Positions 4,240 through 58,398 of a DNA stretch of 59,362 bases are shown here, one piece after another. Under the pieces are notes generated by a model. The model was not told the DNA's origin and ran no database searches. It worked only from the letters and a program-made list of their open reading frames with translations. Both the position numbers and the translations under genes were made by a program. This DNA is from a virus. How positions within the stretch are numbered: position 1 is the stretch's first letter; each line of letters opens with the position of its first letter. The DNA is taken from the IMG/VR virus record IMGVR_UViG_3300018481_000024, positions 1 through 59,362 of that record; one strand, written 5' to 3'.

Positions 4240-7200
4240 ATGTCCAAGAGCGATCATCTTGAAGATGAAGTCCTCCTATGGGTCACCGGGCAGGACAGCA
4301 CTCTCGGCCCCGGTGTCGACGGTCCGTACCTCGCCCTCTACACCGACATCCCTTCTGATGTCGGTGGCGGGACCGAGGTGGTGGGCAACGGCTACGCCCG
4401 CGTAAACACCGACGGCAAGTGGACCGAGCCGTTCGACGGGGCGGCGAGGAACCAGACAGAGGTCATATTTCCTGAGGCCACCGGAGCTTCAGGATTCGGG
4501 ACCCTCGTCGCCATCGGTCTGCTCGACGCCCCGGTGGGAGGCAACCTCCTCTACTGGACGACCATCCCCGCCACCTTCATCGATGACCAGCAGACGCCGA
4601 AGTTCCCGCCGGGAGCGCTCGTCATCATCGAGGATGCCGCCGAGATCCCGAGCGGCGATGAGGTGATCGTCTCCCCCACCGATCCGGGGATGGGGTACGA
4701 CCTCTGGTACAACCCGAACGAGCCGATCACGCTCCGGGTCAACAACGGCGGCGTGTGGGCAGAGATCCCGACCGTCGGTCCACAGGGTCCGACCGGCGCA
4801 ACCGGAGCTGACTCCACAGTCCCCGGTCCTGTCGGACCTCAGGGTGTGCAGGGCATCCAAGGCGTGAAGGGAGATACCGGAGACGTTGGACCTCAAGGTC
4901 CCATCGGCGCTACCGGTGCCACCGGAGCTGACTCGACCGTGCCGGGACCGCAGGGTCCTCAGGGTGACATCGGCCCGCAGGGTGCCACCGGAGCGACCGG
5001 TGCTGATTCGACCGTGCCCGGTCCCACCGGTCCTGAAGGTCCGCAGGGCGTCAAGGGCGACACCGGAGCAACGGGTGCTGATTCCACCGTGCCCGGTCCG
5101 ACGGGACCGACTGGCGCAACTGGTGCGACGGGTCCTGAAGGCCCGCAGGGCATCCAAGGCCCGATCGGAGCAACCGGAGCTGACTCAACCGTTCCCGGCC
5201 CCACCGGTCCCACCGGTCCCGAAGGTCCCGAAGGTCCCGAGGGGCCGGAAGGTCCGCAGGGCATTCAGGGTGAGATCGGCCCAGCCGGTCCTGCTGGTTC
5301 AGGTACTGGTGACGTACTCGGTCCTGCGGCATCTGTTGCCAATCAGTTGGCTGTGTATGCCGACACGACCGGCAAGACCATCACGAACTCTCCTGCCACT
5401 GCTGACCCTGTAACTGGCAACCTTCGTGCCCCGCGGTTGCTGCTCAACGACCCCACCAACACCAACACGCTCACGCTCACCACCGACGTTGATTATTCGG
5501 CTGATGCCACCCTGACCCTCCGCACCGCCACCACAGGCGGTCCGGTGTCGTTGCAGATCCTCGGCGATTCTCGGATCAATCAGGACATGCGGACCGCCGC
5601 TCAGCCGACGTTTACGAACGTCTCGGCGACTACCGCCGCTCCGACCGATCCGGCTCATCTGACCCGCAAGGACTACGTCGACACGGCTGTAGCGGGGGCT
5701 GGCGGAGAGTCGTACTGGACCGACGATGGTGCAGGTGGCATCGAGTACGTCGATGCCGATGGTCCTGCTGCCGTCGGTGTGGAGGGTGTCGGGACGGGTG
5801 CCCTCACCTTCTCGGTTGACGGTGCGGTGATGGGCGTCCTCAGTGCCGACACCGGAAAGTTTGCGTTCTGGAACAACGCCGGACATTTGGGCATGTCGAT
5901 CAACAAGGACACCGGACAGGTCCGCATCGGTACCAACGGATGTGCAACGGCGATGAAAGGCACCGTCTCCCTCTCGCTCGATCCGGTGGCTCCGCTGGAA
6001 GCGGCCACCAAGCAGTACGTCGACAACACGATCGCCAGCACCGTACCCACTCTGCCGCCCGAGTCCGATGCGAATCGGAACACGGTCTACGGCCTCCCCA
6101 CGCCGGATCCGGTTCCTGCCGGGGCTACCGACAACACTGTGTTTGGTTACGACCTTCTGAATCGCCTAACGACAGGTTACAAAAATGTCGCCGTGGGATC
6201 GTGGTCCCTCAGGTATGTGACCTCAGGATCTAAGAACATCGTCTCCGGTTGTGCTGCTGCATATAACACCACGACAGGAAGTGACAATGTAGTCATCGGA
6301 GATTCGTCCCTATATACCAATACGGTGGGGACTGGTAATATCGCTGTTGGGACCAATTCCCTATATACCAGTACCGGCGGCAACAATGTTGCTGTCGGCA
6401 AGGATGCTCTGAGGACGTTGGCGACTGGTGCCAACAACACCGCGGTTGGCTTCAATGCCCTGTTTACGGCTGACCTCGCCGCCGGTAGCAACACTGCGGT
6501 TGGTGCCAACTCCGGTCTGTATGGATCGTCCACCAATGCCAGCTTCACAGTTGCCGTTGGTAACAACGCCAAGGCTGCTCATGCTTCGACTGCGATCGGG
6601 ACCGGGGCTGAGGCTCGCGCCAACGGTTCGCTCGCGCTCGGTGATTCCGCCGTTGCCGTCAACAGCAACCAGTATGTGATCGGTTCAGCCCTCAAGAATG
6701 TTGAGATACCCGGCACCCTCACCGTGATCGGGAGCTACACCGGCTACGCCCATACCGTCCTCTCCACCGTGAACGTGGTTGACGGCTTCAACTGCGGCGC
6801 TACCGTTTCCACCTTCTTCGGCAAGGTGAAGTCACCACCAGCACCGACCGATGCGGATGACTTGACGAACAAGGCGTACGTCGACACCACGGTCGCCGCT
6901 GGCGCGCCAGAGTCCGACGCTCTGTGGAACACCGCCTTCGGCACCAGATCCATTCCGACTGGCATCGCTGGTCAGCGGAACACGGCGGTAGGTGACTCGG
7001 CACTCACAGTCGTAGCTGGTGGGCTGGGAAATACAGCGGTAGGTCAGTTGGCTGGGACTGCGATTACAACTGGTAACAACAATGTAGCTATTGGTTATCA
7101 GGCTCTGCGTACCTCAGACGCTGGAAGTAACAATGTTGCGGTTGGTACTTCTGCTTTGAAGGATTCAACTTCAGGACCGGGCGGCAATGTTGCCGTAGGT

Positions 7201-14526: not shown

Positions 14527-16803
14527 ATGTCCTTCTACTCATACAAGCGACCGGGTGTCTACATCGATGAGGCACCCTTCCAAGGGTTCACCGATGTCGG
14601 CATGTCCACCTCGGTGGCCCTGTTCGTCGGCATGGCGGTGCAGGGTCCGACCGAAGACCCCGCGCTCGTGACCTCGTGGCAGGAGTACGTCGCCCTCTTC
14701 GGCGGCTTCACCCAGCCCAAGTCGACGGCGGCGCAGCCCAACGCCGACTTCACCTACCTGCCCTACGCCGTCTACTCGTTCTTCCAGAACGGTGGCCGCA
14801 ACGCCTACGTCCGACGGGCGGTGTCGCCGTCCGGTGGGTTCACCCACGCCACGGTCGACCTCTACGGAACCCTCATCGAGGTGGAGGATGGGGGCGAAGA
14901 GCTGCCCGACTTCACGGCGGCTGAGCCGGGTGACCACTTCACCGACGCCATGTTCCTGACGGTGCCGAACCAGACGGCACTCCTGACGATGCTGAACGGC
15001 GACACCATCGCCTACGCCCCGGCCCCGTTGTACAGCGACGAGTGGTTCAACGGTCGGACCGTCAAGGTCGACATCCAGCCAGTCTCTCCTCCTGCTGTCA
15101 CCACGACCGAGGTCCACTGGAACGGCACGGCGTGGGCGGCGGATGCCCCGACGCTTGTCGATCACACCAACATCGAGCCGAACGATGTCATCGATCTGGC
15201 CGACTTCACCAGCGTCATTGGCACCCCGCCTGCCGACCTGTCTGACTTCGTCGCTCTCTCCACCTACCTGTTGGCGGAGGGCTTCGACCCATCGACCCTG
15301 CATCAGGCGGCGTGGACGCCGACGACCTTCTGGACCATCACCGACGAGGGAGGCACCCCGGCCTCAATCGCCCTCATCTGGGACGGCGTGACGTGGCAGG
15401 AGACGCTCGACCCCGGTACGACGGGCTTCAGCCCCGGTGTGCAGACCACGAATGGGGTCCGCCCCCGAGCGACGGCGACGGCTGAGTCGTCCCTGATCTC
15501 CTTCAGCGTCCGGTCGAAGTCGGCGGGCACATGGGCCAACAGCAACGTGGCCGTGGTCATCATGCCGCAGACGTACCTGCCCGATCCCACGAACCCGTCG
15601 GACTTCGCCGCTCAGGTGTACACGCTCGGCGTGCTCGTCAACAACGGGACGGCCACCACTCCGGTCTGGTCACAGGTCGAGACGTTCCAGAACCTCTGCA
15701 ACCAGCAGATCCCCGGCACCCAGCGTCCCGACGTGGTGGTCAACTCGTCCTCGTCGGGATCGCAGTTCATCACGGTCCTCGACGTGAACATCGATTCGAT
15801 GCCGTACTTCCCGATCGCTGCCAACGGTCAGCCCGATCCGGTCGTCCTGACCGGCGGCACCGACGGGCCTCCGCCGCTGTCCGCCGATCTCGTGGGCATC
15901 ACCAGTGACTCGGTCGGCAAGATCGACAACCCACTGATGGTCAACATCGCCGGGTACGACACCGACGCGTTGTCCGGTGGCAGGGAGTACGTCGCTGCGT
16001 TCTGGTCGCCGTCCACGTCCCAGCGGACCGATGTCATCTCGATCAACGACTACGCCCGCAAGCGGAACCTCGATGAGACTTCAGCGGACTACGCCTCCCT
16101 CCTCAGGGGGACGAACAACGCTGGCGGTCTGCTGACTGATGACACCGGCAACAGCCGGGTCGCCGCCTACACCCCGTGGATCACCATCCCCGATCCGGCG
16201 GTCAACGGTGGAACGATCACCATTCCGCCCGCCGGGTTGGTGTCGGGCCTCATCTCCCGCAACGACTCCACCCGTGGCGTGTACCAGACGCCTGCCGGTG
16301 TCACGGCGGTTCTGTCGAACGCCCTCAACGTGGACTGCCGGTTCACCGACAACGAACTCGGCGACCTCAACGTGTCGAACATCAACGCCATCCGTCCGGT
16401 GGCCGGTTCCGGCATCTGCATCATGGGTGGCCGTACCCGGAAGACCTACGGGGTCGACAAGTACCTCGCTCCCCGGCGGACCCTCATCTTCATCGAGGAG
16501 TCGCTGCGCCGGTCGACGGAGTTCGCCGTCTTCGAGAACAACGACGCCGTCCTGTGGGCGCGGCTCCGCAACGTGGCCGAGCGGATCCTCCGTCCCATCT
16601 GGAGCGACGGTGGCCTCAAGGGCGCTTCCGCCACCGAGGCGTTCCGCATCATCTGCGACGCATCCAACAACACGCCAGACGTGATCGCCGCAGGCGAAGT
16701 GCGAATGGACGTTGGGGTGGCCCTCCAGTACCCCGCAGAGTTCGTGATCATCCGACTGTCCCAGTACGACGGTGGAGCCTCTTCCGTCACGGCGACGACC
16801 TGA
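14527..16803 (+). CDS. Tail sheath protein
   Basis: 758 residues; CAGGAG precedes the ATG by 7 nt, after a 43-nt gap, the largest untranslated gap in the tail operon. The N-terminus MSFYSYKRPGVYIDEAPFQG and the following DVGMSTSVALFVGMAVQGP are the typical sheath start. The C-terminal part NDYARKRNLDETS..., INAIRPVAGSGICIMGGRT, YLAPRRTLIFIEESLRRSTEFAVFENND and ILRPIWSDGG is the conserved core that contacts the tube. The middle (~residues 120-300) is a variable, outward-facing insertion. The protein forms the contractile sheath that drives the tube through the envelope. Confidence 0.95.
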   Translation: MSFYSYKRPGVYIDEAPFQGFTDVGMSTSVALFVGMAVQGPTEDPALVTSWQEYVALFGGFTQPKSTAAQPNADFTYLPYAVYSFFQNGGRNAYVRRAVSPSGGFTHATVDLYGTLIEVEDGGEELPDFTAAEPGDHFTDAMFLTVPNQTALLTMLNGDTIAYAPAPLYSDEWFNGRTVKVDIQPVSPPAVTTTEVHWNGTAWAADAPTLVDHTNIEPNDVIDLADFTSVIGTPPADLSDFVALSTYLLAEGFDPSTLHQAAWTPTTFWTITDEGGTPASIALIWDGVTWQETLDPGTTGFSPGVQTTNGVRPRATATAESSLISFSVRSKSAGTWANSNVAVVIMPQTYLPDPTNPSDFAAQVYTLGVLVNNGTATTPVWSQVETFQNLCNQQIPGTQRPDVVVNSSSSGSQFITVLDVNIDSMPYFPIAANGQPDPVVLTGGTDGPPPLSADLVGITSDSVGKIDNPLMVNIAGYDTDALSGGREYVAAFWSPSTSQRTDVISINDYARKRNLDETSADYASLLRGTNNAGGLLTDDTGNSRVAAYTPWITIPDPAVNGGTITIPPAGLVSGLISRNDSTRGVYQTPAGVTAVLSNALNVDCRFTDNELGDLNVSNINAIRPVAGSGICIMGGRTRKTYGVDKYLAPRRTLIFIEESLRRSTEFAVFENNDAVLWARLRNVAERILRPIWSDGGLKGASATEAFRIICDASNNTPDVIAAGEVRMDVGVALQYPAEFVIIRLSQYDGGASSVTATT

Positions 16804-24855: not shown

Positions 24856-25230
24856 ATGGAAGCGCTGGAGTTTCCCTTCGTCATCCGAGGCGGGAAGTGG
24901 CAGACCACCCGAGACATCAACCGGATCGTCCGGGGACAGGTCATCGATGTCGCCATGACCAACTTCCGTGAGCGGGCCATGCGACCCATCTACGGATCCG
25001 ATGCCCAGAGCTTCGTCTTCCGGCCTCAGGACGCGCTGGTGAAGGAGGATGCTGTCCGCATCATGAAGCAGCGGTTGGTGGCGCTGTGTCCTCGGGCGGT
25101 CATCGATCGGGTCAACATGGAACGGTCCCCGACGGATCCGGCGGCGGTCATCTTCACGGTCACGTTCCGTGCGTCCCTCCATGAGGATCCGGTCGTGCTG
25201 ACGTACGAACTCACGAGGGATGACAAATGA
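24856..25230 (+). CDS. Baseplate wedge protein, gp25/gpW family
   Basis: 124 residues, ATG directly after the previous stop. PFVIRGGKWQTTRDINRIVRGQVIDVAMTNFRERAMRP is the family's pattern: an initial strand then a helix with repeated hydrophobics. A helix with RIMKQRLVALCPRAVIDRVNME follows, then strands VIFTVTFRASLHEDPVVLTYEL. Gp25 proteins polymerise the wedge and resemble the start of the sheath. Its end overlaps the next gene by ATGA. Confidence 0.87.
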   Translation: MEALEFPFVIRGGKWQTTRDINRIVRGQVIDVAMTNFRERAMRPIYGSDAQSFVFRPQDALVKEDAVRIMKQRLVALCPRAVIDRVNMERSPTDPAAVIFTVTFRASLHEDPVVLTYELTRDDK

Positions 25231-26801
25231 GTAGCTACTACGACGAGAACACCAATGACGTGATTCTCGACTACACCGCCCGAGACTTCGAAGCCATCAG
25301 GGAGATGATCGTCGGGGTCGCCCGCGGCGTGTATCCCGAGTGGCAGACGGTGGGTGAGGCCAACGACTTCGGCACTGTGCTGTTGGAGATGTATGCGTAC
25401 GTCGCAGATGTCACCAACTTCTACATCGACCGGGTGGCGGCGGAAGCGTTCATCCAGACGGCCACCCTGAGGGAGTCGGTCAACAACATCGCCGAGATGA
25501 TGGGCTACCGGCCCATCGGTCAGCGGGCGGCGCTGTGCGAGGTGAAGTTCACGATCGATCCCGCCCACCCTGCCGACATCACGATCCCGGCCAAGACCCG
25601 ACTCCTGACCGACATCCCGAACCAGCAGCAGCCGTTCGTCTTCGAAACGGACCATCCGATCACCCTGTACATGGGTGGGGAGGCCCAGTACACGACGGCC
25701 ACCGAGGGGCTGACGACCGACTGGACGACGATCCATGTGTCGGTCGGGAACCCGGCACTGTCGGTACGAATTCCTGAGGCCAACGTGATTCAGGATTCAG
25801 TAGCTGTGCGAACCCGTGAGGGGACCTTCGTCCACAACAACTCCCTGACCGACACCCCCAACTACATCTTCTGGACCGAGATCGATGCGGTGTCGACGGC
25901 TCGTCCCAACCAGTCGGCCTACGCCACCCGAGTGGATGACGCCGGATACACCTACCTGATCTTTGGTGACGGGTCAGCCGGACGGATCCCTCCGGTCGGT
26001 GCCGAGATCGACGTGACCTACCGCTCCGGTCGGGGAGCGGCAGCCAACTCCGTGGCGATCGGTGACATCAGCATCATCGACTCGATGGTCGTCAACCCTG
26101 CCTTCTGCTCGGTGACCAACCCCACCATCCCAGTGGGCGGGGCAAATCCTGAGTCTCTGGAATCCATGCGAAAGTCGATTCCGAAGGCGAGGCGGATCCG
26201 TGACCGGGCCGTATCTCTGAAAGATTATGCCGATCTGGCGATTCAGGTTCCCGGTGTGGAGAAGGCTGTCTCGTTCGGACAGATCTACTCCGCCGTGTCG
26301 ATCAAGATCGCTCCGGTCGGGGACCGGGACACCTTGGAGAGCAAGCCCCTCATGGATGCTCTGGCTGGTCGGGTTTCCGACTACATGTCCGACAAGGTGA
26401 TGATCGGGTCGGTCGTCTACGTCGACCCCGCCGAGATCAGCGACTTCTACCTGAGCATGGAAGTCCATGTGAAGCCGGGGTACGGCCAGCAGGTGACGTT
26501 GCAGGAGGTGCGTGGTGTCCTCTACGAGCTGGCGAGCTACGTCGAGATGGACATCGATGAGGAGCTGTTCATCGGTGAGGTGTACCGGGCAGCCATGAAG
26601 ATCGACGGCGTCGACTGGGTCAACATCCTCCACTTCAGCCTCTCCGAGCCGGTCACCGAGGGGGCCACCAGCGGAGTGGTCGAGAACCTCAAGCCGCTGT
26701 TCGGTTCCATCCTCCAGTTCGCCCCGATCCCGACCGATGTCACCGACATCAACGGCGGTGGCCTGAAGCTCTTCGGATACGGGGGCGTCGTCGCCTCATG
26801 A
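25227..26801 (+). CDS. Baseplate wedge protein, gp6/baseplate J family
   Basis: 524 residues. The N-terminal DYTARDFEAIREMIVGVARGVYPEWQ...NDFGTVLLEMYAYVADVTNFYIDRVAAEAF is the conserved baseplate-J/gp6 helix set. Later parts include TYLIFGDGSAGRIPPVGAEIDVTYRSG and RDRAVSLKDYADLAIQVPGVEKA, also typical. The protein forms the iris ring of the wedge that opens as the tail contracts. It overlaps its downstream gene by ATGA. Confidence 0.9.
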   Translation: MSSYYDENTNDVILDYTARDFEAIREMIVGVARGVYPEWQTVGEANDFGTVLLEMYAYVADVTNFYIDRVAAEAFIQTATLRESVNNIAEMMGYRPIGQRAALCEVKFTIDPAHPADITIPAKTRLLTDIPNQQQPFVFETDHPITLYMGGEAQYTTATEGLTTDWTTIHVSVGNPALSVRIPEANVIQDSVAVRTREGTFVHNNSLTDTPNYIFWTEIDAVSTARPNQSAYATRVDDAGYTYLIFGDGSAGRIPPVGAEIDVTYRSGRGAAANSVAIGDISIIDSMVVNPAFCSVTNPTIPVGGANPESLESMRKSIPKARRIRDRAVSLKDYADLAIQVPGVEKAVSFGQIYSAVSIKIAPVGDRDTLESKPLMDALAGRVSDYMSDKVMIGSVVYVDPAEISDFYLSMEVHVKPGYGQQVTLQEVRGVLYELASYVEMDIDEELFIGEVYRAAMKIDGVDWVNILHFSLSEPVTEGATSGVVENLKPLFGSILQFAPIPTDVTDINGGGLKLFGYGGVVAS

Positions 26802-48531: not shown

Positions 48532-49428
48532 GTGGTACGCAGAGCAGTGATTCCAGACGAGGATGAGTTCATCCCCGAGGACGACGACGAGGGCACGCCC
48601 GCAGAGGCTGCCGACGGCGGTGAGGACTACGAGGGTGAGCCGGAACCGGCACCCCGTCGTCAGCGACAGCGTGTCGCCGACGACGCCGAAGACCTCGACC
48701 CGCCCGCCACGAAGACGAGGCGTGCCCGTGTCACCGATGAGGACGGCGAGGAGGAGAAGCGTCTCCCCCGGAAGGCTGCGGCCTCGACCAACGGGACGAA
48801 GCGTCGGACCATCAAGCGTGGCTGGCAGGCCGGTCAGAAGACCATCGACAACAACCGTGGTCCGACCACCTACGCCAAGGCGTATCAGGACAACCCGACG
48901 ACTCAGGTTCTCAAGTTCCTTGAGGACGAGCCGTACGCCAGCTACGCCCGCCACTGGGTGGCTCGGGTCGACGCCGAGGGCAACAAGAAGAACCGCCCCT
49001 ACGTCTGCCTCGGCACCTTCGATGAGGCGTGCCCCCTCTGTGACGTGCTCGGTGACAAGCCGCAGTCGGTCAACTCGTTCAACATCGCGGTGCTGGACGA
49101 GGACGGCGAAGACGTGACCCACTACACATGGGATGTCGGTCCCCGGCTGTTCGACACGCTCAAGTCGTTCCGTGAGGACCCGAAGATCAAGACCCTCACC
49201 AAGGGCTTCTGGGGTTCCCGCCGGTCGGGCAAGGGCTTCCAGACCATGCACCACGTCACCCCCATCCGGTCCGCCGCCACCCTGCTGGAGGACTACGAGA
49301 TGGAGGCTCCTCCGACCTCGGTGTACGCCGAGATCGAACTGTACGAGGCCGACATCATCTCGGTCCCGACCTACGAGGAGTTGGAGGAGATCGCCGAGGA
49401 GTTGGCGAACTCCGACGATTACGAGTGA
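48532..49428 (+). CDS. Putative single-stranded DNA-binding protein
   Basis: 298 residues from a GTG start with AAGGAGG 9 nt upstream. The first ~80 residues are acidic and disordered; residues ~110-270 form the core with YVCLGTFDEACPLCDVLGD (a CxxC zinc site), SFNIAVLDEDGEDVTHYTWDVGPRLFDTLKSF and MHHVTPIRSA. The end is acidic (EELEEIAEELANSDDYE), as in SSB and gp32 proteins, where it recruits partners. The position just before PolA and the acidic tail support a gp32-like role, which is not proven. Confidence 0.6.
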   Translation: MVRRAVIPDEDEFIPEDDDEGTPAEAADGGEDYEGEPEPAPRRQRQRVADDAEDLDPPATKTRRARVTDEDGEEEKRLPRKAAASTNGTKRRTIKRGWQAGQKTIDNNRGPTTYAKAYQDNPTTQVLKFLEDEPYASYARHWVARVDAEGNKKNRPYVCLGTFDEACPLCDVLGDKPQSVNSFNIAVLDEDGEDVTHYTWDVGPRLFDTLKSFREDPKIKTLTKGFWGSRRSGKGFQTMHHVTPIRSAATLLEDYEMEAPPTSVYAEIELYEADIISVPTYEELEEIAEELANSDDYE

Positions 49429-49442
49429 GGTGTATCTACACC
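49429..49442. promoter_or_regulatory. GTGTA-TC-TACAC dyad between SSB-like and PolA genes
   Basis: GGTGTATCTACACC is a dyad with half sites GTGTA/TACAC like those of the palindrome at 40095, but with a 2-nt rather than 4-nt centre. It lies at the PolA start and might be a second site of the same DNA-binding protein. Confidence 0.35.
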
Positions 49443-49450
49443 CGCACCTG

Positions 49451-51451
49451 ATGCGCTCAGAGGAGGCGCTGGACCCGATGGTCCAGCGCCTTCTTCGCGC
49501 TCCGTACGTCGTGCTCGACGTGGAAACCGACGGCCTCGACACCACCAACAACTCGGTGATCTGGGTCGGCCTCGCCGCTCCCGGCCAGCGCCACGTCATC
49601 CCGCTCGGTCACCCTCTCGGGTTCTGCACCGAGCCTGCCCACGTCATCGAGGAGGACGACCTCTCGACGGTGCGGCCCTTCAAGAACAACCCCACCCGGT
49701 TCACCAAGCCGAAGAAGAAGCGGGTGAAGATCCCGGCGAAGTTCTCCGAGCCGCCGGTAGATCAGTTGCGACCCGACATCGTGTTCGCCGCGTTGAAGCC
49801 CCTGCTGTTCGATCCCGAGCGGATCATCGTCGGCCACAACGTGAAGTTCGATCTCCTGTCGGTGGCGAAGTACTACGGCGGGCAGATCCCGACGGCCCAT
49901 CCCCACGACACGATGATCCTCGCCCACATCCTCAACGAGAATCAGGCTGCCTACGACCTCAAGACCCTGACCACCAACTGGCTGCTCGGTCCGAAGGCCA
50001 CGCCCGAGAGGAAGGCGGAGTTCTACCCGGCGCTCGCCAAGGGCGGGATCATGGACAAGCCCTTCGACGCCATCGCCGAGTACCTGTGCCGGGACATCAC
50101 CTACACGATGTGGTTGTACCGCCGGTACATGAAGCGGCTCACCCCGAAGTTCCGTGACGTGTTCGAACTGGAGTCGGACACCCAGCAGGTGATCATGGAG
50201 ATGGAGCAGGTGGGGGTCCGGGTGGACCTGAGTGTCATACGAAACCTGACTACCAAGGTGGCTCAGGAAAGAGACGCCCTGATCCAGTCCATCTACGACG
50301 AGGCCGGTCGGGAGTTCAACATCGCCAGCGTCCCCGAGAAGGTGGCGCTCCTGTTCGGCTCCAAGGACGAGGGCGGCATGGGACTGGAGCCGGTGAGCTT
50401 CACCAAGAAGAACCAGCCTCAGGTCAACAAGGCCGTGATGCAGGCGCTGGCCGACGACGGTGTCGACATCGCCGAGATGCTCATGGAGTACGGCGAGCTG
50501 GACAAGATCCTGAACTCGTTCCTCGTCCCGTACGAGGAGGAGTTCGTCAACCCCACCACCCACCGGGTCCACCCCTCCTTCTGGCAGCACCGGGCGAGAA
50601 CGGCACGGCTCACCTCGTCGGAGCCGAACATCCAGCAGATCCCGGTGCGGACCGAACTGGGCCGGATGTTCCGTCGGTCCTTCACCGCTCCACCCGGTGG
50701 CGTCCTCGTCACGGTCGACTACGACCAGATCGAACTGCGCTGCACCGCCCACCTCTCGCGGGACAAGGCGATGCGGACGATCTTCATCCTCGGCGAGGAC
50801 ATCCACGCCCGGTCAGCGGCCAACGCCTTCACCATCTCCATCGAGAAGGTCACGCCGGAGCAGCGTGCCAACGGGAAGACCTTCTCGTTCGCCGTGCTCT
50901 ACGGGGCGTCCCCGAAGAAGGTGGCGAAGACGATCGGTCGTCCGATCAAGACCACCGAGAAGTTGCTGGAGGAGTTCTACAAGGGCTTCCCGGCGCTGGA
51001 GAGGTGGAAGCGGGAGGTGCTGGCGTCAGCGGTCCGCAAGGGTGACCCCAACATCCGAGGGGCTGACCCCTACGTCGAGATCCCCCCGTATGGACGACGA
51101 CGCCGACTGCCCGATCTGTGGTCTGGGGACACCAGCGAGTTGTGGAGGGCACAACGACAGGCCGTCAACGCCGTCGTCCAAGGGTTCGCATCCTGCATCA
51201 TGAAAGAGGCGATGGTGTTGACGGCGGATGAACTCCGCCGATCGGGTCTGGCTGCCCGGATCGTCGTACAGGTCCACGACGAAGTGGTGGTCGAAGTGGA
51301 TAACGTGTGTGACGCTGAAGCGGTGCTGGCCCTCGTGGTGAAGTGCATGGAGTCGATCACCGATCAGCACGGGGATCCGATCCTCGGAGACGTGCCACTG
51401 ATTGCCAGCGGAGGCTTCGGGCCGACGTGGGTTGATGCGAAGGACCACTGA
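49451..51451 (+). CDS. Family A DNA polymerase (PolA-like) with 3'-5' exonuclease
   Basis: 666 residues from the ATG at 49451. Alternatives are GTG 49430 (right at the operator-like dyad) and ATG 49478, which has AGGAGG 11 nt upstream. There is no 5' nuclease domain. Exonuclease motif I is VLDVETDGLD (~22-30), and motif II is HNVKFDLLS. Polymerase motif A is VDYDQIELR (~420), motif B is R.NGKTFSFAVLYG (~473) and motif C is VHDEVVVE (~608). The residue equivalent to E. coli Phe762 is Phe. It replicates the phage genome together with the helicase and primase. Confidence 0.92.
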   Translation: MRSEEALDPMVQRLLRAPYVVLDVETDGLDTTNNSVIWVGLAAPGQRHVIPLGHPLGFCTEPAHVIEEDDLSTVRPFKNNPTRFTKPKKKRVKIPAKFSEPPVDQLRPDIVFAALKPLLFDPERIIVGHNVKFDLLSVAKYYGGQIPTAHPHDTMILAHILNENQAAYDLKTLTTNWLLGPKATPERKAEFYPALAKGGIMDKPFDAIAEYLCRDITYTMWLYRRYMKRLTPKFRDVFELESDTQQVIMEMEQVGVRVDLSVIRNLTTKVAQERDALIQSIYDEAGREFNIASVPEKVALLFGSKDEGGMGLEPVSFTKKNQPQVNKAVMQALADDGVDIAEMLMEYGELDKILNSFLVPYEEEFVNPTTHRVHPSFWQHRARTARLTSSEPNIQQIPVRTELGRMFRRSFTAPPGGVLVTVDYDQIELRCTAHLSRDKAMRTIFILGEDIHARSAANAFTISIEKVTPEQRANGKTFSFAVLYGASPKKVAKTIGRPIKTTEKLLEEFYKGFPALERWKREVLASAVRKGDPNIRGADPYVEIPPYGRRRRLPDLWSGDTSELWRAQRQAVNAVVQGFASCIMKEAMVLTADELRRSGLAARIVVQVHDEVVVEVDNVCDAEAVLALVVKCMESITDQHGDPILGDVPLIASGGFGPTWVDAKDH

Positions 51452-51860: not shown

Positions 51861-52112
51861 ATGAAATCCGATCCCTACATGTTTCTGATCGACCTGTTGT
51901 CGAAGATGTACAACCCATTGGTTATAGAGGTATACGAAGATCGGATCAGACAGGCCGCTCTTTTCCTGAATGACCAGTGGGACTCAGATATCTGGTTGGT
52001 CTTCGACCGGGACTTCCACTGGAAGTTCGGTCGCCCGAACGTCGCCGACTTCACCCACGGCCCCAACGTCGTGATCAAGGTGCAGCACTACATATCGGAG
52101 TATCTAGATTGA
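51861..52112 (+). CDS. Small protein of unknown function
   Basis: 83 residues; GGAG lies 6 nt before the ATG at 51861. It has MFLIDLLSKMYNPLVIEVYEDRIRQAALFLNDQWDSDIWLVFD and a positively charged, aromatic C-terminal part. No motif is known. Its TGA overlaps the TTG start of RecA. Confidence 0.55.
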   Translation: MKSDPYMFLIDLLSKMYNPLVIEVYEDRIRQAALFLNDQWDSDIWLVFDRDFHWKFGRPNVADFTHGPNVVIKVQHYISEYLD

Positions 52113-53128
52113 CTGAACTCAACGACCTCATCCGCTCCTTCAACAAGAAGGAGAAGCGGGATGTCATCATCCGGGGAGCCGACCTCAAGGAGCGGGTGAT
52201 CCCCCGTGTCACCTCCGGGTCGCTCACCTTCGACGTGATCCTCGGTGGCGGCTGGCCCCTCAACGTGTGGAACGAGATCGTCGGCCAGCCCTCAGCCGGG
52301 AAGTCGGTGGTGGCGATGAAGAGCATCGCCGCCCAGCAGAAGGTGAACCCCAACCACGAGACGCTGTGGATCGCGGCGGAGGACTTCGTCCCCGACTGGG
52401 CGCAGACCTGTGGCGTGAACCTTGATCAGGTGGCGGTCGCCGAGCTGAACGAGGCGGAGAAGGCGTTCCAACTGGTGGTGGATGCATTGGAGACGCGGTC
52501 GGTCGACGCCGTCGTGATCGACTCCCTCCCTGCCCTCGTCCCCGTCGGTGAGAACGAGAAGGACGTGGGCGAGTGGATGCCCGGTCTTCAGGCTCGACTC
52601 AGCAACCAGTTCATGCGGAAGTCCGGCGGCACCCAGCGCCGATCGCTCGTCGCCCCGGACCGACCCTGCTTCTGCCTCGCCATCAACCAGTGGCGGTACA
52701 AGATCGGTGTCATGCACGGCGACCCCCGCACCACACCGGGCGGGGTCGGCAAGGACTTCGCCTACTTCGTGAGGGCCGAGGTGGCCCGTGACGAGTGGCT
52801 CACCGACACCAAGAAGCGGCGGGTCGGCCAGACGATCATGTGCCGGACCATCAAGAACAAGAGCGCCCCTCCCCAGCAGCGGTGCGCCTTCGACTTCTAC
52901 TTCGACGTGGGCGGTCCGGTCGACCCCGGTAGCTACGACACCATCGGTGAGCTGCTGAACACGGCGCTCGTCTTCGACGTGATCCAGCAGGGCGGCGGCT
53001 ACTACACCTTCAACGACGAGCGCATCGGTGATCGGGGACGGGACACGGTGCTGGAGTACCTCCGGTACGACCTCACCGTGCAGGAGCAGATCAGATCCGA
53101 AGTGATGAGGCTGGCTCTCCGGGCCTGA
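52109..53128 (+). CDS. recA: RecA-like recombinase
   Basis: 339 residues from a TTG at 52109 that overlaps the previous stop (TTGA), with GGAG 8 nt upstream. Walker A is GQPSAGKS (59-66). Walker B lies in VDAVVIDSLPALVPVGENE, followed by the conserved DVGEWMPGLQARLSNQFM and CLAINQWRYKIG. The C-terminal part is beta/alpha and ends with RSEVMRLALRA. It binds ssDNA and drives strand exchange for recombination-dependent replication and repair. It acts with the SNF2 helicase and the nucleases downstream. Confidence 0.85.
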   Translation: MTELNDLIRSFNKKEKRDVIIRGADLKERVIPRVTSGSLTFDVILGGGWPLNVWNEIVGQPSAGKSVVAMKSIAAQQKVNPNHETLWIAAEDFVPDWAQTCGVNLDQVAVAELNEAEKAFQLVVDALETRSVDAVVIDSLPALVPVGENEKDVGEWMPGLQARLSNQFMRKSGGTQRRSLVAPDRPCFCLAINQWRYKIGVMHGDPRTTPGGVGKDFAYFVRAEVARDEWLTDTKKRRVGQTIMCRTIKNKSAPPQQRCAFDFYFDVGGPVDPGSYDTIGELLNTALVFDVIQQGGGYYTFNDERIGDRGRDTVLEYLRYDLTVQEQIRSEVMRLALRA

Positions 53129-53142: not shown

Positions 53143-53484
53143 ATGCTGGATGAAATACCTGAAGGTCATCTCATCGGGAAGAGCATCTCCTCCTCGACCT
53201 ACAAGAACCTCGGGTGCCGCTGTGAAGGATGCCGCATCGAGGCCAAGTTGTACCAGCGGAAGATGAGGAAGCGGGGCGGGAGGATCAAGGCCCACGACAA
53301 GGCCCAGTCCGTCGCTACCTATCGGGCTGGTCAGTGGGTCCGAGAAGAGTTCCCTCGCGTGTGGTCACGCATCTACAAGGAGGCGCTGGCCGAGGCGCTG
53401 ATCTCCCACGACTTCACCCCGAAGGAGCAGAGTGTCACACCCTCAGAAGAGACTGTCGGACAAGCAGGAGCAGCGAACGGCTGA
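53143..53484 (+). CDS. Small basic protein with CxCxxC motif
   Basis: 113 residues. STYKNLGCRCEGCRIEAKLYQRKMRKRGGR is a possible zinc knuckle followed by a basic helix. The rest includes VATYRAGQWVREEFPRVWSRIYKEALAEALISHDF. It may bind DNA. Its last 53 nt overlap the start of the following nuclease gene in another frame. Confidence 0.55.
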   Translation: MLDEIPEGHLIGKSISSSTYKNLGCRCEGCRIEAKLYQRKMRKRGGRIKAHDKAQSVATYRAGQWVREEFPRVWSRIYKEALAEALISHDFTPKEQSVTPSEETVGQAGAANG

Positions 53485-53743
53485 GCAGTTCGGCGGCACC
53501 GTCAACCCCGGCAGTGGATCGGGATGGCGTCGACCGCAGGACGTGAGGGTCGGGCGGGAACTCCTGATCGAGAACAAACGTACCGGCAAGAAGGGCATCA
53601 CCATCAAGGCTGACGACTGGAAGCAGCTTCGGCTCAACGCTCTCAGTACAGGCCGGATGCCCATGATGAGCATCGAACTAGGTGGGGTCGACTACGTCAT
53701 GGTGAGACAGGTCGACTGGGAGGAAAAGTGCGGAGAACTCTGA
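53432..53743 (+). CDS. PD-(D/E)XK nuclease, Holliday-junction-resolvase-like
   Basis: 103 residues from a GTG start with AAGGAG 4-6 nt upstream. The pattern GSGSGWRRPQDVR (Asp), LLIENKRTGKKG (E-x-K) and ITIKADDWKQLRLNALSTGR is the layout of small PD-(D/E)XK enzymes often annotated as Holliday junction resolvases in phages. It would cut branched DNA left by recombination or packaging. It overlaps both neighbours in other frames. Confidence 0.7.
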   Translation: MSHPQKRLSDKQEQRTAEQFGGTVNPGSGSGWRRPQDVRVGRELLIENKRTGKKGITIKADDWKQLRLNALSTGRMPMMSIELGGVDYVMVRQVDWEEKCGEL

Positions 53744-54738
53744 GCGCCACAGCAGTAGAGAAACTGCGGGCGACACATAGCAGCAAACCCGATGGGCCGA
53801 TTCTTCTGCCCATCATCGAACGGCACGTCATGAAGGCCAGCGCCGGTCGGGACGAGGACCGGGATATCGCCCACCTCCACCCCTCCGAGATGGTGAAGGA
53901 CGACTGGTGCCCCCAGCGGAGCTACTTCCGCATCATGGATGCGGAGAAGGAAACGACGGACGCCAATCCGAGTTTCCGAATGCAGTCGGCGTTCGCCAGC
54001 GGCCATGACGCCCACAAGAAGTGGCAGCGGTGGCTCAGCGAGATGGGCATCCTCTGGGGCAAGTGGAAGTGCGGGTGCGACTCCACGGTCATGGGTGCCT
54101 TCACCCCGTTCGACCGGTGCCGGGTCTGCATGGAGAAGTGGCGCTACGTCGAGGTCCCCTTCGAAGACGAGGAGTACCTCATCTGGGGACACGCCGACGG
54201 CCTCGTCATCCTCAACGCCGGGGGCAGCTACCTCATCGAGATCAAGACCATCGGCATCGGCACGCTCCGGTTCGAAGCTCCCATCCTGTACGAGAAGCTC
54301 CAGAACGGTGTGCTCACCGTCGATCAGGTGTGGTCGGCCATCCGCAAGCCGTTCGCCTCCCACCGGATGCAGGCCCAGTTCTATCTGTGGCTGTTGCAGC
54401 GCCAATATCCTGAGTTCGCCAACGTCTCAGAAATGCTGTTCATCTACGAGTGGAAGCCCGACGGCGCGGTGAAGGAGTTCCGCATCGGAGCCACCGAGTC
54501 GGTCATCGCTCCCAAGCTGGAGCTGGCTCGCGAGGTAGCCAACCACGTCAACCACGGCATCCAGTACCGTGAGCGCCCCGACTGGGCAGCGCCCGACGGT
54601 CATGTCTGTTCGTCGTGTGAGTACCGGAGCATTTGCTGGGACATTGTGGAGGTAGACGATGGTGCAACGCCGACGGGTGTCTCGGTTCGACGTTCGACTG
54701 GGCGGGGTGGGAAGCGGACCCGCGTGGCAGCAGCCTGA
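53728..54738 (+). CDS. Cas4/RecB-like exonuclease with Fe-S-type cysteines
   Basis: 336 residues from a GTG with GGAGG upstream. It has HLHPSEMVKDDWCPQRSYFR (first Cys), GHADGLVILN (Asp), YLIEIKTIG (E-x-K), QAQFYLWLLQ and CSSCEYRSICW (three C-terminal Cys). This is the Cas4/AddB-type set of four cysteines for an iron-sulfur cluster around a RecB nuclease core. A further CGC...CRVC pair (~112-135) could bind zinc. It probably resects DNA ends to load RecA. No CRISPR array or other cas gene is near. Confidence 0.8.
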   Translation: MRRTLSATAVEKLRATHSSKPDGPILLPIIERHVMKASAGRDEDRDIAHLHPSEMVKDDWCPQRSYFRIMDAEKETTDANPSFRMQSAFASGHDAHKKWQRWLSEMGILWGKWKCGCDSTVMGAFTPFDRCRVCMEKWRYVEVPFEDEEYLIWGHADGLVILNAGGSYLIEIKTIGIGTLRFEAPILYEKLQNGVLTVDQVWSAIRKPFASHRMQAQFYLWLLQRQYPEFANVSEMLFIYEWKPDGAVKEFRIGATESVIAPKLELAREVANHVNHGIQYRERPDWAAPDGHVCSSCEYRSICWDIVEVDDGATPTGVSVRRSTGRGGKRTRVAAA

Positions 54739-55126
54739 CGACGAGATCCCACAGATACCGGACGACATCACCGGGATGTCCGACCGGGATCTGATGAACC
54801 TGTTCGCCGAGTTCACGGCATGGCAGAACTTCTTCTCCACCCAGTTGGCGAAGTGCGAGGCCGACGAGATCGAGCAGGCTGCCTTCCTCCGTCGGGCCGA
54901 GGCGAAGGCGCAGGCAGCGTCGGAGGCCAAGACCGTGGCGATGCGGAAGGCCGAGGCACAGGACGACCCGGCGGTCGCCAGATCCACCGACTCCTACGTC
55001 GAGATCAAGGCCAAGAAGAAGGCGCTCGCCATCTACATGGAGTCGCTGGAACGAGCGGCCAGCCTCCTCAGCCGGGAGCTGACCCGTAGGCTGGCCTATG
55101 TGAACCGACCTGACCGGGTTCCCTGA
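54659..55126 (+). CDS. Coiled-coil protein of unknown function in the nuclease cassette
   Basis: 155 residues with GGAGG before the ATG, overlapping the previous gene by 80 nt in another frame. Residues ~50-110 form a long Ala/Glu/Lys helix (FLRRAEAKAQAASEAKTVAMRKAEAQ) with a second helix after (YVEIKAKKKALAIYMESLERAASLLSREL). It may serve as a structural partner of the Cas4-like nuclease. No known family is recognised. Confidence 0.6.
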   Translation: MVQRRRVSRFDVRLGGVGSGPAWQQPDDEIPQIPDDITGMSDRDLMNLFAEFTAWQNFFSTQLAKCEADEIEQAAFLRRAEAKAQAASEAKTVAMRKAEAQDDPAVARSTDSYVEIKAKKKALAIYMESLERAASLLSRELTRRLAYVNRPDRVP

Positions 55127-55566
55127 TGGCATCACGGGGGAAGGGTGCCCTCGACCGGGGGAAGACCGCCGAGCGGAAGGTCGTTGAGTTCCTGAAGACG
55201 GTGCGACTCAGGAATGTCCGACGCCTGAAGGCGGGCGAGTTCACGGACAAGGCCGACATCATGTTCGACGGTTCCGTCTGGCATATAGACGTGAAGAGCC
55301 GGAACACAATCGCCATTCAGGCATGGTGGCGGGAGATCAGGGTCGAGGCCGAGGCTCTCAAGCTGAAGCCCATGTTGATTATCCACTTCCCCGGTGAGGG
55401 GAGCGCAGCGCATTGGCTCTGTATCACAGAACTCCAAGATGCGAACATCGGATGGACCGGCCAGTTACACTCAGCGTTGGCCGAGCCACCGATCGGGAAC
55501 GTACATGACGGACACAGTGATAGAGCCTCGGGCGGAGGTCATCCTCAAGGTCAGCTCCAACTCTGA
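55126..55566 (+). CDS. PD-(D/E)XK endonuclease-like protein (resolvase type)
   Basis: 146 residues, ATG sharing its first base with the previous stop. GKTAERKVVEFLKT, then RRLKAGEFTDKADIMFDG (Asp), VWHIDVKSRNTIAIQAWWREI (D-x-K) and KPMLIIHFPGEG form the core of small resolvase/VRR-like nucleases in phages. It is the third nuclease-type protein in 2 kb. Its last ~20 residues, Gly/His/Gln-rich, are read from DNA that also encodes the start of the SpoVS-like gene. Confidence 0.68.
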   Translation: MASRGKGALDRGKTAERKVVEFLKTVRLRNVRRLKAGEFTDKADIMFDGSVWHIDVKSRNTIAIQAWWREIRVEAEALKLKPMLIIHFPGEGSAAHWLCITELQDANIGWTGQLHSALAEPPIGNVHDGHSDRASGGGHPQGQLQL

Positions 55567-55801
55567 CCCCCACGCCGTCAGCGCAGCCATCTTCCGTTCC
55601 ATCTTCGACAGCCTCACCTTCCCGACGGTGCGCGCCATAGGCCACGGTGCCATCGGTCAGGCCACCAAGAGCATCGCCATCGCACGAGGCAACATCGCTG
55701 TGCGTGGCATCGACCTGTCGTGCAACATCGGGTTCGAAACCATCACTGGATCGTCCGGTGATCAGATCTCCTCGATGGTGTTTCGTCTATTCCCGAGATG
55801 A
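55505..55801 (+). CDS. SpoVS/Alba-like small DNA- or RNA-binding protein
   Basis: 98 residues from the ATG at 55505. The core [20 protein letters not shown], then [20 protein letters not shown] and [19 protein letters not shown] match the SpoVS pattern known from sporulating and other bacteria (VKVS..S.P..VA.AL, IGAGA..QA.KA.AIARG..AP.G.DL.C.P.F). SpoVS has the Alba fold, often linked to nucleic acid binding. It overlaps the nuclease gene by 62 nt and the next fibre gene by ATGA. It may condense phage DNA or alter host gene expression. It could also have been acquired from the host. Confidence 0.8.
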
Positions 55802-58398
55802 CCCAGACCACTTTCGGAGGCGTCTATGAGGCGCAAGTGGTTACCGATAATGGGGATAATCTGCGCCTTGTTGTTCCTCAGGTATTTGGCGACACGCAGA
55901 TCACCTGTACAAGATGGCTCGGATCTACTCGTCCCACCGCCAGTGAACGGGGATACGTTTCCTTCATCGGCGGCGACGCTGCTTGGCCGGTCTGGATGGT
56001 TGTCGCAGCCGGAAGCGGCATTATCTCCAATGGGTCGACGGGGGGCACGGACGAGGTATGGACCGGTCCCGATGAACCCGGAGCTGAACTAGAGCTTTGG
56101 ATTGACACCACCACCAATCCAGCCATTCTCAAGTCTCAGATAAACGGTGTATGGACGATTGTCCCGACCCGAGGTCCCCAAGGTCTGCGGGGACCCACCG
56201 GTCACACGGGTGCAGATGGTCCCCAAGGTCCACCCGGCCCGACGGGTGCTACTGGTCAGACCGGAGCGGCCTCCACCGTGCCCGGTCCTCCCGGCGCGAC
56301 TGGTCCTGCTGGTCCCAAGGGTGACACGGGGGCTGCCTCGACAGTTCCCGGTCCTCCCGGTGCGACCGGACCGACAGGTCCCAAGGGTGATACCGGTGCC
56401 GCCTCGACAGTCCCCGGTCCCCAAGGACCGAAGGGCGATACCGGAACCACCGGAGCAACAGGAGCTGCCGGTCCAGTAGGCCCGGAAGGCCCGGAAGGCC
56501 CGGAAGGACCCAAGGGCGACACCGGCACTGGCGTGACCATGAAGGGCACGGTCACGACCCCACCCACCGGGACGCTCATCCCGCCGGGTGTCACTGACGC
56601 CGGTACCCCAGCAGATATCGGCGACTCGGTCGTCATCCAAGGGTCGGCCATCCCCGAGGAGAACTCTCACCTCTGGACATATACCGATATGGCTGGTGTA
56701 TGGACCGACATGGGGAAGCTCCAAGGTCCCGAAGGTCCACCCGGTGAGGACGCTGTACTTCCGCCCGAGACTGATGCGTTGGGCAACACCAGCTACGGCA
56801 TCAGCACCCTTGAAGTCGTCACGACCGGCGGGAAGAACTCGGCGCTGGGCCAGTTGGCTCTCGCAGCGGTGACCACGTCGAACAACAACGTCGCCGTCGG
56901 TTATCAGGCGTTGACCGCGGTGACCACGGGCCTGAACAACACGGCGGTCGGTTACCAGACAGGTCGCAACCTGACGACCGGAGGGGCGAACACCGCTGTC
57001 GGTTACGGTGCGATGAGTGGCACCGCTGCGGGGAGCACGGCGATCACGGCTGTTGGTCAGAGTGCCCTCAACAGGGTGACGGGAGCGAGCAACACGGCTC
57101 TCGGTGCCAACACCTCGTACATGCTCACGTCGGCGACGGGGAGCACGGCGGTCGGTACGTCGGCGCTGTACGCGCCGAAGGGTGTAGCCGGTAACGCCAC
57201 CACCACTGCCATCAACCACACGGCCTTGGGGTTCCAGACGGGAGCGTATTCGTCGCTGACGGGTGGCAACATCCTCGCTGTCGGGGTGAACGCCATCGCC
57301 CACACCGATGGCACGGCGCTCGGTATGGGCACCGAGGCACGAGGTGTTGGGTCGACGGCGCTCGGCTTCGGAGCCATCGCCGAACTCGACTACCTCATCA
57401 GGCTCGGCGGAACGTCGATCACGAAGCTCGCGACGTACGCACCGACGATGGAGTTTCAGTACGGACCGGGAGCAGCGGCGTACACCAACTCGATAGTCAA
57501 CGTGCATTCGGGTACGTCGGCGAACCACGCGATGCTGTTCAAGCTGCGGTCGAACAGCATCGAGAAGACGCTGATGGAGTTGATCCACGACGGTCGGGTG
57601 AAGTTCCCGAACGGGCAGGCGTCCTTCGGCGTGACCCACACCCTCCCGCCGCCGGGGCAGCTACAGATCGGGCAGGCCACGCAGGGTGCTACGGCGCTGT
57701 CGATGGGAATGCCCGCCGACTACGGCTACCGGCTCGACATCAACACGACGTGGAGCGGCACGACCCCCGAAGCCAACTGGGCTGAGTTCAAGATCTGGTC
57801 GATGGCCCAGCCCGGTCTGTCGGTGATGAAGATCGTCGGCACTGGTTACCTTGAACTGGCGCGTGACCCGATCAGCCCGATGGGTGCTGCAACCAAGCAG
57901 TACGTCGACACGGCGGTCGCCGGGGCTACCGGTACCGAAGAGGTGGCGGTAGGACCGGACGATCCCGGCGGCACCTTCGACATCTGGTACGACACGGATG
58001 ATGTAGCTCCTCCGTTTCCCTCGATGTGGTCTGAACCCGGCACCCTGACGAGGCCGACAACGGGAGCCGCCATCGACACGACGTGGGGCCAAGCCGTCCA
58101 CGACAAGGTGTTCGCGAAACCCGTCATGGTTCACGCGGCCTACACGGCTGTCACCAACGGGGCAGGATCGTTCACGGTGCCCATAGCGTCGTTCGCTCCC
58201 GGCCTGTCAACGGTCACCGGGTGGGTCACCGATTGCTATGCGAACGACCCTAATAAATACCTGAGGGTCACCACGGCTCGTAAAACGACGGAGACATGGG
58301 AATGTGTCTTCGAGTGGTCGACCGGTGTCGGCGGTTGGAACTTGCTCACCGGTTGGGGCTGCACCCTGTATGTCATCGCGTGGGGGACACCGGCATGA
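55798..58398 (+). CDS. Second giant fibre: OB-like head, collagen-like shaft, YadA-like beta-roll
   Basis: 866 residues. Residues 1-75 ([26 protein letters not shown]...[18 protein letters not shown]) resemble the OB domain of gp5/baseplate V proteins, so the fibre may dock at the tail tip. Residues ~124-242 are Gly-X-Y repeats with [14 protein letters not shown] units. Residues ~325-525 carry [20 protein letters not shown] and TALGFG beta-roll repeats, and then a [14 protein letters not shown] neck (~700). The C-terminal ~120 residues are a beta-rich head. It is a trimeric receptor-binding fibre, sharing modules with that at 4240. Confidence 0.85.

Follow-up and report, generated by a model that had tools for sequence, protein, structure and literature searches.

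Throughout one clade of phages, a SpoVS-family protein was found to be encoded downstream of a Holliday-junction resolvase whose fold has been exchanged repeatedly. The window examined here (the whole stretch of DNA analyzed, a linear IMG/VR record of 59,362 bases with a contractile-tail gene set that includes a tail sheath at 14527–16803 and a baseplate wedge at 25227–26801) carries one such gene on the plus strand at 55505–55801, at the end of a module of DNA-recombination genes. We lean toward the reading that this phage-adapted SpoVS assists homologous recombination as an accessory factor within a module of RecA, Cas4, and resolvase genes, where it would bind DNA joints together with whichever resolvase is present. 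The conserved pairing makes the function of SpoVS testable at the bench. If the reading is correct, the annotation of the gene in more than 550 viral contigs, where spoVS copies are now filed as sporulation genes, would be corrected, and phage recombination would gain a new accessory factor.

SpoVS has been known since 1995, and we know of no molecular function assigned to it. The ORF in the window is intact and encodes 98 amino acids. The Pfam HMM for SpoVS (PF04232), whose curated cut-off is 24 bits, gave residues 13–94 of the product a score of 59.8 bits (E 2.3e-16); the match spans profile positions 2–81 of 83 and takes in the whole domain. The protein also matched the PHROGs family phrog_35646, annotated as "sporulation protein" (E 3.7e-16), and the Thermus SpoVS structures 2eh1 and 2ek0 (E 1e-6). 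A preliminary description of the sequence had assigned the 98-residue product to SpoVS from its signature and had proposed a profile search and a structure prediction as checks. The family assignment is borne out by the profile search, and the core motif G-x-G-A...Q-A-x-K-x-I-A-I-A-R-G is present with G46, Q52, K55, and R61 conserved; the wording of the first motif needs correction, as the protein reads LKVSSNSDP and not VKVSS. The Alba-type fold claimed for the protein is likewise supported by an AlphaFold2 model made from an 8-sequence alignment (pLDDT 90.7, pTM 0.79). The top Foldseek matches of this model in the PDB are the SpoVS structures 2eh1, 2ek0, and 9a7h (TM 0.76–0.80), followed by archaeal Alba/Ssh10b proteins, with six Alba-type chains at E 1.8e-4 to 6.5e-4 and TM of approximately 0.6–0.67. 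Weaker matches include the Alba-nucleic-acid complexes 3wbm (RNA) and 3u6y as well as RNase P proteins. No Alba family was matched in the Pfam search, in which PF04232 was the sole match at E ≤ 0.1. The phage proteins are more basic than their bacterial relatives (median pI of 8.6 and 8.8 for phage SpoVS versus 6.6 for bacterial SpoVS). Arg43 is invariant in 50 sequences of the clade, whereas Gln occupies the same site in bacteria (89%), and the clade further differs from bacterial SpoVS by G76 in place of Ala and I88-S89 in place of Arg-Thr; K55 and Q52 are invariant in both groups. Given the basic pI and the fold neighbors, the window protein may bind nucleic acid, and by analogy with Alba it is probably dimeric.

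To place the gene in context, SpoVS proteins were clustered at 85% identity, which gave 54 viral clusters, 28 in the clade of the window and 26 outside it. The module in the window, all on the plus strand, begins after a family A DNA polymerase (49133–51451; PF00476, E 7.4e-87) that marks its upstream edge. It consists of, in order, a RecA/UvsX-like recombinase (51977–53128; PF00154, E 2.7e-42; phrog_97) whose true start is probably further in; a small nuclease of uncertain start that PHROGs annotates as a Holliday junction resolvase (53432–53743; phrog_2002, E 4.5e-18); a Cas4-like/PD-(D/E)XK exonuclease (53728–54738; PF12705, E 1.3e-6; phrog_2506, E 3.9e-26; phrog_1706); a helical protein (54776–55126, with an ORF open from 54659 and an uncertain start) matched by phrog_7138 alone, and weakly; a predicted PD-(D/E)XK (Hjc-like) Holliday-junction resolvase (55126–55566); and SpoVS. 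The first gene past this boundary encodes a collagen-repeat tail fiber (55798–58398; phrog_5073 and others). Homologs of the recombinase were found in 25 of the 28 clade clusters, of the phrog_2002 nuclease and the Cas4-like protein in 26 each, and of the helical protein, which lies between the Cas4-like gene and the resolvase gene and is conserved as well as SpoVS itself, in 27. Clusters without one of these homologs are mostly short contigs or loci of the type found in Streptomyces phage BRock. The overlaps noted in the preliminary description, 62 nt with the upstream gene and ATGA (55798–55801) with the downstream one, were confirmed, and its view of SpoVS as a long-standing part of a nuclease operon agrees with the retention of the module, including the Cas4-like neighbor it had suggested looking for in related phages, far beyond this one genome. 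Genes downstream of SpoVS vary by lineage, and a homolog of the tail gene follows it in just 12 of the 28 clusters. The nearest relatives of the window RecA and SpoVS belong to Streptomyces phages, and it is from these relatives that the host of the window is presumed.

The gene directly upstream of SpoVS in the window, at 55126–55566, matched phrog_244 (E 3.2e-11) and, weakly, PF24608 (PDDEXK_15). Residues E16, D44, D57, and K59 of its product align with those of relatives and are spaced as in PD-(D/E)XK nucleases; its last ~20 residues, within the overlap with SpoVS, look like read-through. Searching the PDB with a profile of the family matched Hjc alone, at weak E-values of 0.06–0.35, and the window protein was not picked up by a local HMM for Hjc from which it had been left out. 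Its AlphaFold2 model was unusable (pLDDT 51.7). By its match to phrog_244 the protein is a predicted Holliday-junction resolvase that would cleave four-way junctions; its Hjc-like PD-(D/E)XK fold is putative. PHROGs names phrog_244 "RusA-like", which is likely an annotation error, as the members seen here (in the window and in loci L012 and L017) show residues of the PD-(D/E)XK type and are not RusA.

A same-strand resolvase lies upstream of SpoVS in all 28 clusters of the window clade, within 210 bp in 22 and within 1.4 kb in every case, with small genes between the two in six clusters. When the first sets of loci were searched with HMMs built from the genes in this slot, 162 of 164 had a same-strand upstream resolvase, and the two exceptions, phages TS-12 and LysYB1, both carry a Firmicutes-type SpoVS. 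None of these resolvases was found in the 26 non-clade viral clusters by HMMs whose seeds came from the window clade, so other kinds of resolvase could be missed there. The two groups also separate on a SpoVS tree, in which cellular and Firmicutes-virus proteins fall together behind a stem of 0.86 (support 95/100). Because the first counts were conditioned on SpoVS, a reverse control was run in which viral contigs were scanned with a profile of the Cas4-like nuclease of the module instead of SpoVS. Of 55 loci whose downstream sequence extends for 4.5 kb or more, 52 have SpoVS inside the flank. A 53rd (L327) was rejected as a SpoVS-less locus, since its SpoVS gene is located farther along the contig, beyond the flank limit. 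The other two (L368 and L401) retain a phrog_244-type nuclease and Cas4 with no SpoVS in the contig, and represent natural losses of SpoVS among related phages. Every one of the 66 SpoVS loci in the Cas4-seeded set (which may include near copies; their SpoVS proteins form 22 clusters) has an upstream resolvase, and in 65 the distance is 210 bp or less. Ten Cas4-seeded loci at first had no recognized resolvase, and the idea that some SpoVS loci have none was abandoned once endonuclease VII (PF02945, E ~1e-27) was found in the slot.

Four unrelated folds occupy this slot: PD-(D/E)XK (phrog_244; L012 and L017, as in the window), RuvC (phrog_1770 in L013 and L014; phrog_159 in L003 and L016, and a few small genes away in L018), RusA (PF05866, E 1e-17; L010 and L011), and endonuclease VII. 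A tree of the Cas4-like protein (81 rows, 250 columns) requires at least eight changes of resolvase type, and the SpoVS tree (85 columns, with many forks unresolved) at least five; L061 and L067, for example, have phrog_244-type nucleases within an otherwise RuvC clade. The slot counts and the swaps therefore indicate that a resolvase is always there, that its fold is exchangeable, and that SpoVS is retained, which shows pathway-level and operon-level coupling of SpoVS and the resolvase. Since the phrog_2002 nuclease is constant besides the swappable resolvase, the module contains two such enzymes. Physical contact between SpoVS and the resolvase does not follow from this, since the slot would equally be preserved if resolvases were exchanged at homologous flanks; a search for fusions of the two proteins found none. 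The preliminary description had offered three functions for SpoVS, namely packaging or silencing DNA, modulating host transcription, and holding single-stranded DNA for recombination, and the last of these, taken as holding DNA for recombination, is the best fit, given that the neighboring gene always encodes a Holliday-junction resolvase. In the mechanism that we propose, a SpoVS dimer would bind the joints that RecA strand exchange and replication leave in the DNA, whether branched or in part single-stranded, and would keep them in a form that the neighboring resolvase can cut, such that phage DNA would be debranched ahead of packaging. SpoVS would act via the DNA or via a generic contact, and because of this any resolvase fold could fill the partner slot.

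The occurrence of spoVS in phages is itself common, and the preliminary description was mistaken in regarding it as an atypical phage gene. Profile scans of the viral contigs in IMG/VR returned at least 564, at least 550, and at least 520 confirmed relatives in overlapping sets, two of the scans thus each exceeding or reaching 550; profiles were needed, as a scan of viral contigs with the single window SpoVS sequence gave no matches. Among cultured phages, tblastn identified the gene in Streptomyces phages BRock, LuckySocke, Alone3, GiJojo, and pSt2308, in Stenotrophomonas phage TS-12, and in Lysinibacillus phages LysYB1/2. Two GenBank entries titled "Bacteriophage sp.", MT835471 and MT836246 (L008 and L009), were dropped as cases of phage spoVS, since a YmdB-type metallophosphoesterase gene precedes SpoVS in them; both are probably bacterial contamination because they contain the bacterial YmdB-type metallophosphoesterase-SpoVS locus. 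In environmental phages, spoVS has already been described in the literature as an auxiliary (metabolic) gene for "sporulation" (PMC6172770, PMC8940887). The gene being both widespread in phages and already reported, neither its presence here nor surprise at it is warranted as a novelty; the constant pairing with interchangeable resolvases is new, and was not found in the literature searched.

Recombination genes of other kinds adjoin SpoVS outside the window clade. In Firmicutes phages, SpoVS directly precedes RecT in three loci (L264, L271, and L274; 11–15 bp) and is near RecT in another (L273), with SbcC- or RecE-like genes upstream in these RecT-linked loci, and it directly precedes SSB in three more (L247, L252, and L253). 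Approximately half of the Firmicutes-phage clusters had none of the recombination genes sought. In L258, a Firmicutes-type viral SpoVS (5273–5554) is directly followed by a gene with an AbrB/SpoVT-like start, and the Firmicutes-type line may have another role. The broader proposal that the SpoVS family as a whole consists of chaperones of recombination joints, working with any resolvase here and with RecT or SSB elsewhere, and that the sporulation phenotype derives from an ancestral role at nucleic-acid joints, is one that we put forward as speculative and rather doubtful.

Alba proteins bind RNA too, and SpoVS could instead be an RNA-binding regulator that controls how the operon transcript is translated or degraded where DNA genes give way to tail genes. 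Its position at that border, the Alba-RNA complex and RNase P proteins among the fold matches, and the bacterial gene order, in which SpoVS follows YmdB within 300 bp in 33 of 80 loci and YmdB itself adjoins RNase Y, would suit such a role. The genes that vary between lineages are those downstream, however, and the constant part is the recombination module upstream; we consider RNA regulation unlikely. A somewhat smaller probability still is given to SpoVS as an auxiliary gene for sporulation, through which the phage would direct the development or dormancy of its host, with the adjacency to resolvases being simply inherited operon order. Streptomyces hosts make spores, which would favor this explanation, as would the published reading of viral spoVS (PMC6172770, PMC8940887) and the function of SpoVS in Bacillus sporulation (PMC8510167). 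Against it, actinobacteria offer no cellular SpoVS to mimic: among 297 genomes of Actinomycetes, the class of Nonomuraea, only two had SpoVS above the cut-off, both copies are phage-like with a RuvC-like gene just upstream, and the presumed host of the window would thus lack a cognate SpoVS pathway. Moreover, SpoVS has stayed fixed in a DNA-recombination module through at least eight resolvase swaps, and the copies in Firmicutes phages also adjoin RecT, RecE, or SSB. The two actinobacterial copies are L407 (G283:C44) and L169 (Nonomuraea sp. SYSU D8015); G283:C44 is 110 kb, the size of BRock-type phages, and is perhaps a prophage or phage-plasmid.

There is little to recommend a nucleoid-type role like that of archaeal Alba, with SpoVS coating or compacting the phage DNA, despite the Alba fold and basic pI, as a general coat protein needs no adjoining resolvase and the sequence carries no sign of high abundance or of packaging with the genome. 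Least probable of all is positional hitch-hiking, in which the role of SpoVS would be unrelated and its place by the resolvase would persist because breaks at this edge of the module are rare: conservation equal to that of SpoVS is indeed seen for Cas4, the phrog_2002 nuclease, and the helical protein, and recombination between conserved flanks could swap resolvases and keep the slot with no tie to SpoVS, but BRock-type phages have Cas4 far upstream and still have RuvC next to SpoVS, and RecT and SSB neighbors recur in unrelated Firmicutes phages.

Compared with bacterial SpoVS (PF04232; Thermus 2eh1/2ek0; B. subtilis), the window protein shares family, length, fold, the invariant G46, Q52, and K55, and the near-invariant R61, but the window type forms a separate clade marked by R43, G76, and I88-S89, is more basic, and has its gene beside that of a resolvase rather than beside YmdB. 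YmdB, the usual bacterial neighbor, was absent from all viral loci tested. The structure 9a7h is a crosslinking-based model of B. subtilis SpoVS with YunD, which we take to be of the metallophosphoesterase class, and together with YmdB beside many bacterial SpoVS genes it hints at a link to metallophosphoesterases. Archaeal Alba/Ssh10b proteins (1y9x, 1h0x, 3u6y, 3wbm) have the fold in common with the window SpoVS, at 12–22% identity. The viral spoVS genes described earlier (PMC6172770, PMC8940887) belong to the same family and are read there as sporulation genes, with no recombination context reported in the available parts of those papers. The partner nuclease matches phrog_244 and, as a putative Hjc-type resolvase, has catalytic-type residues with PD-(D/E)XK spacing, at variance with the "RusA-like" label. 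Also among the closest known systems are the Streptomyces phages BRock, LuckySocke, Alone3, GiJojo, and pSt2308, which have a SpoVS of approximately 41% identity, a resolvase directly upstream, and the nearest RecA relatives; in these phages the resolvase is RuvC-like and not PD-(D/E)XK, ThyX and other genes are inserted after Cas4, and the downstream genes are different from those of the window.
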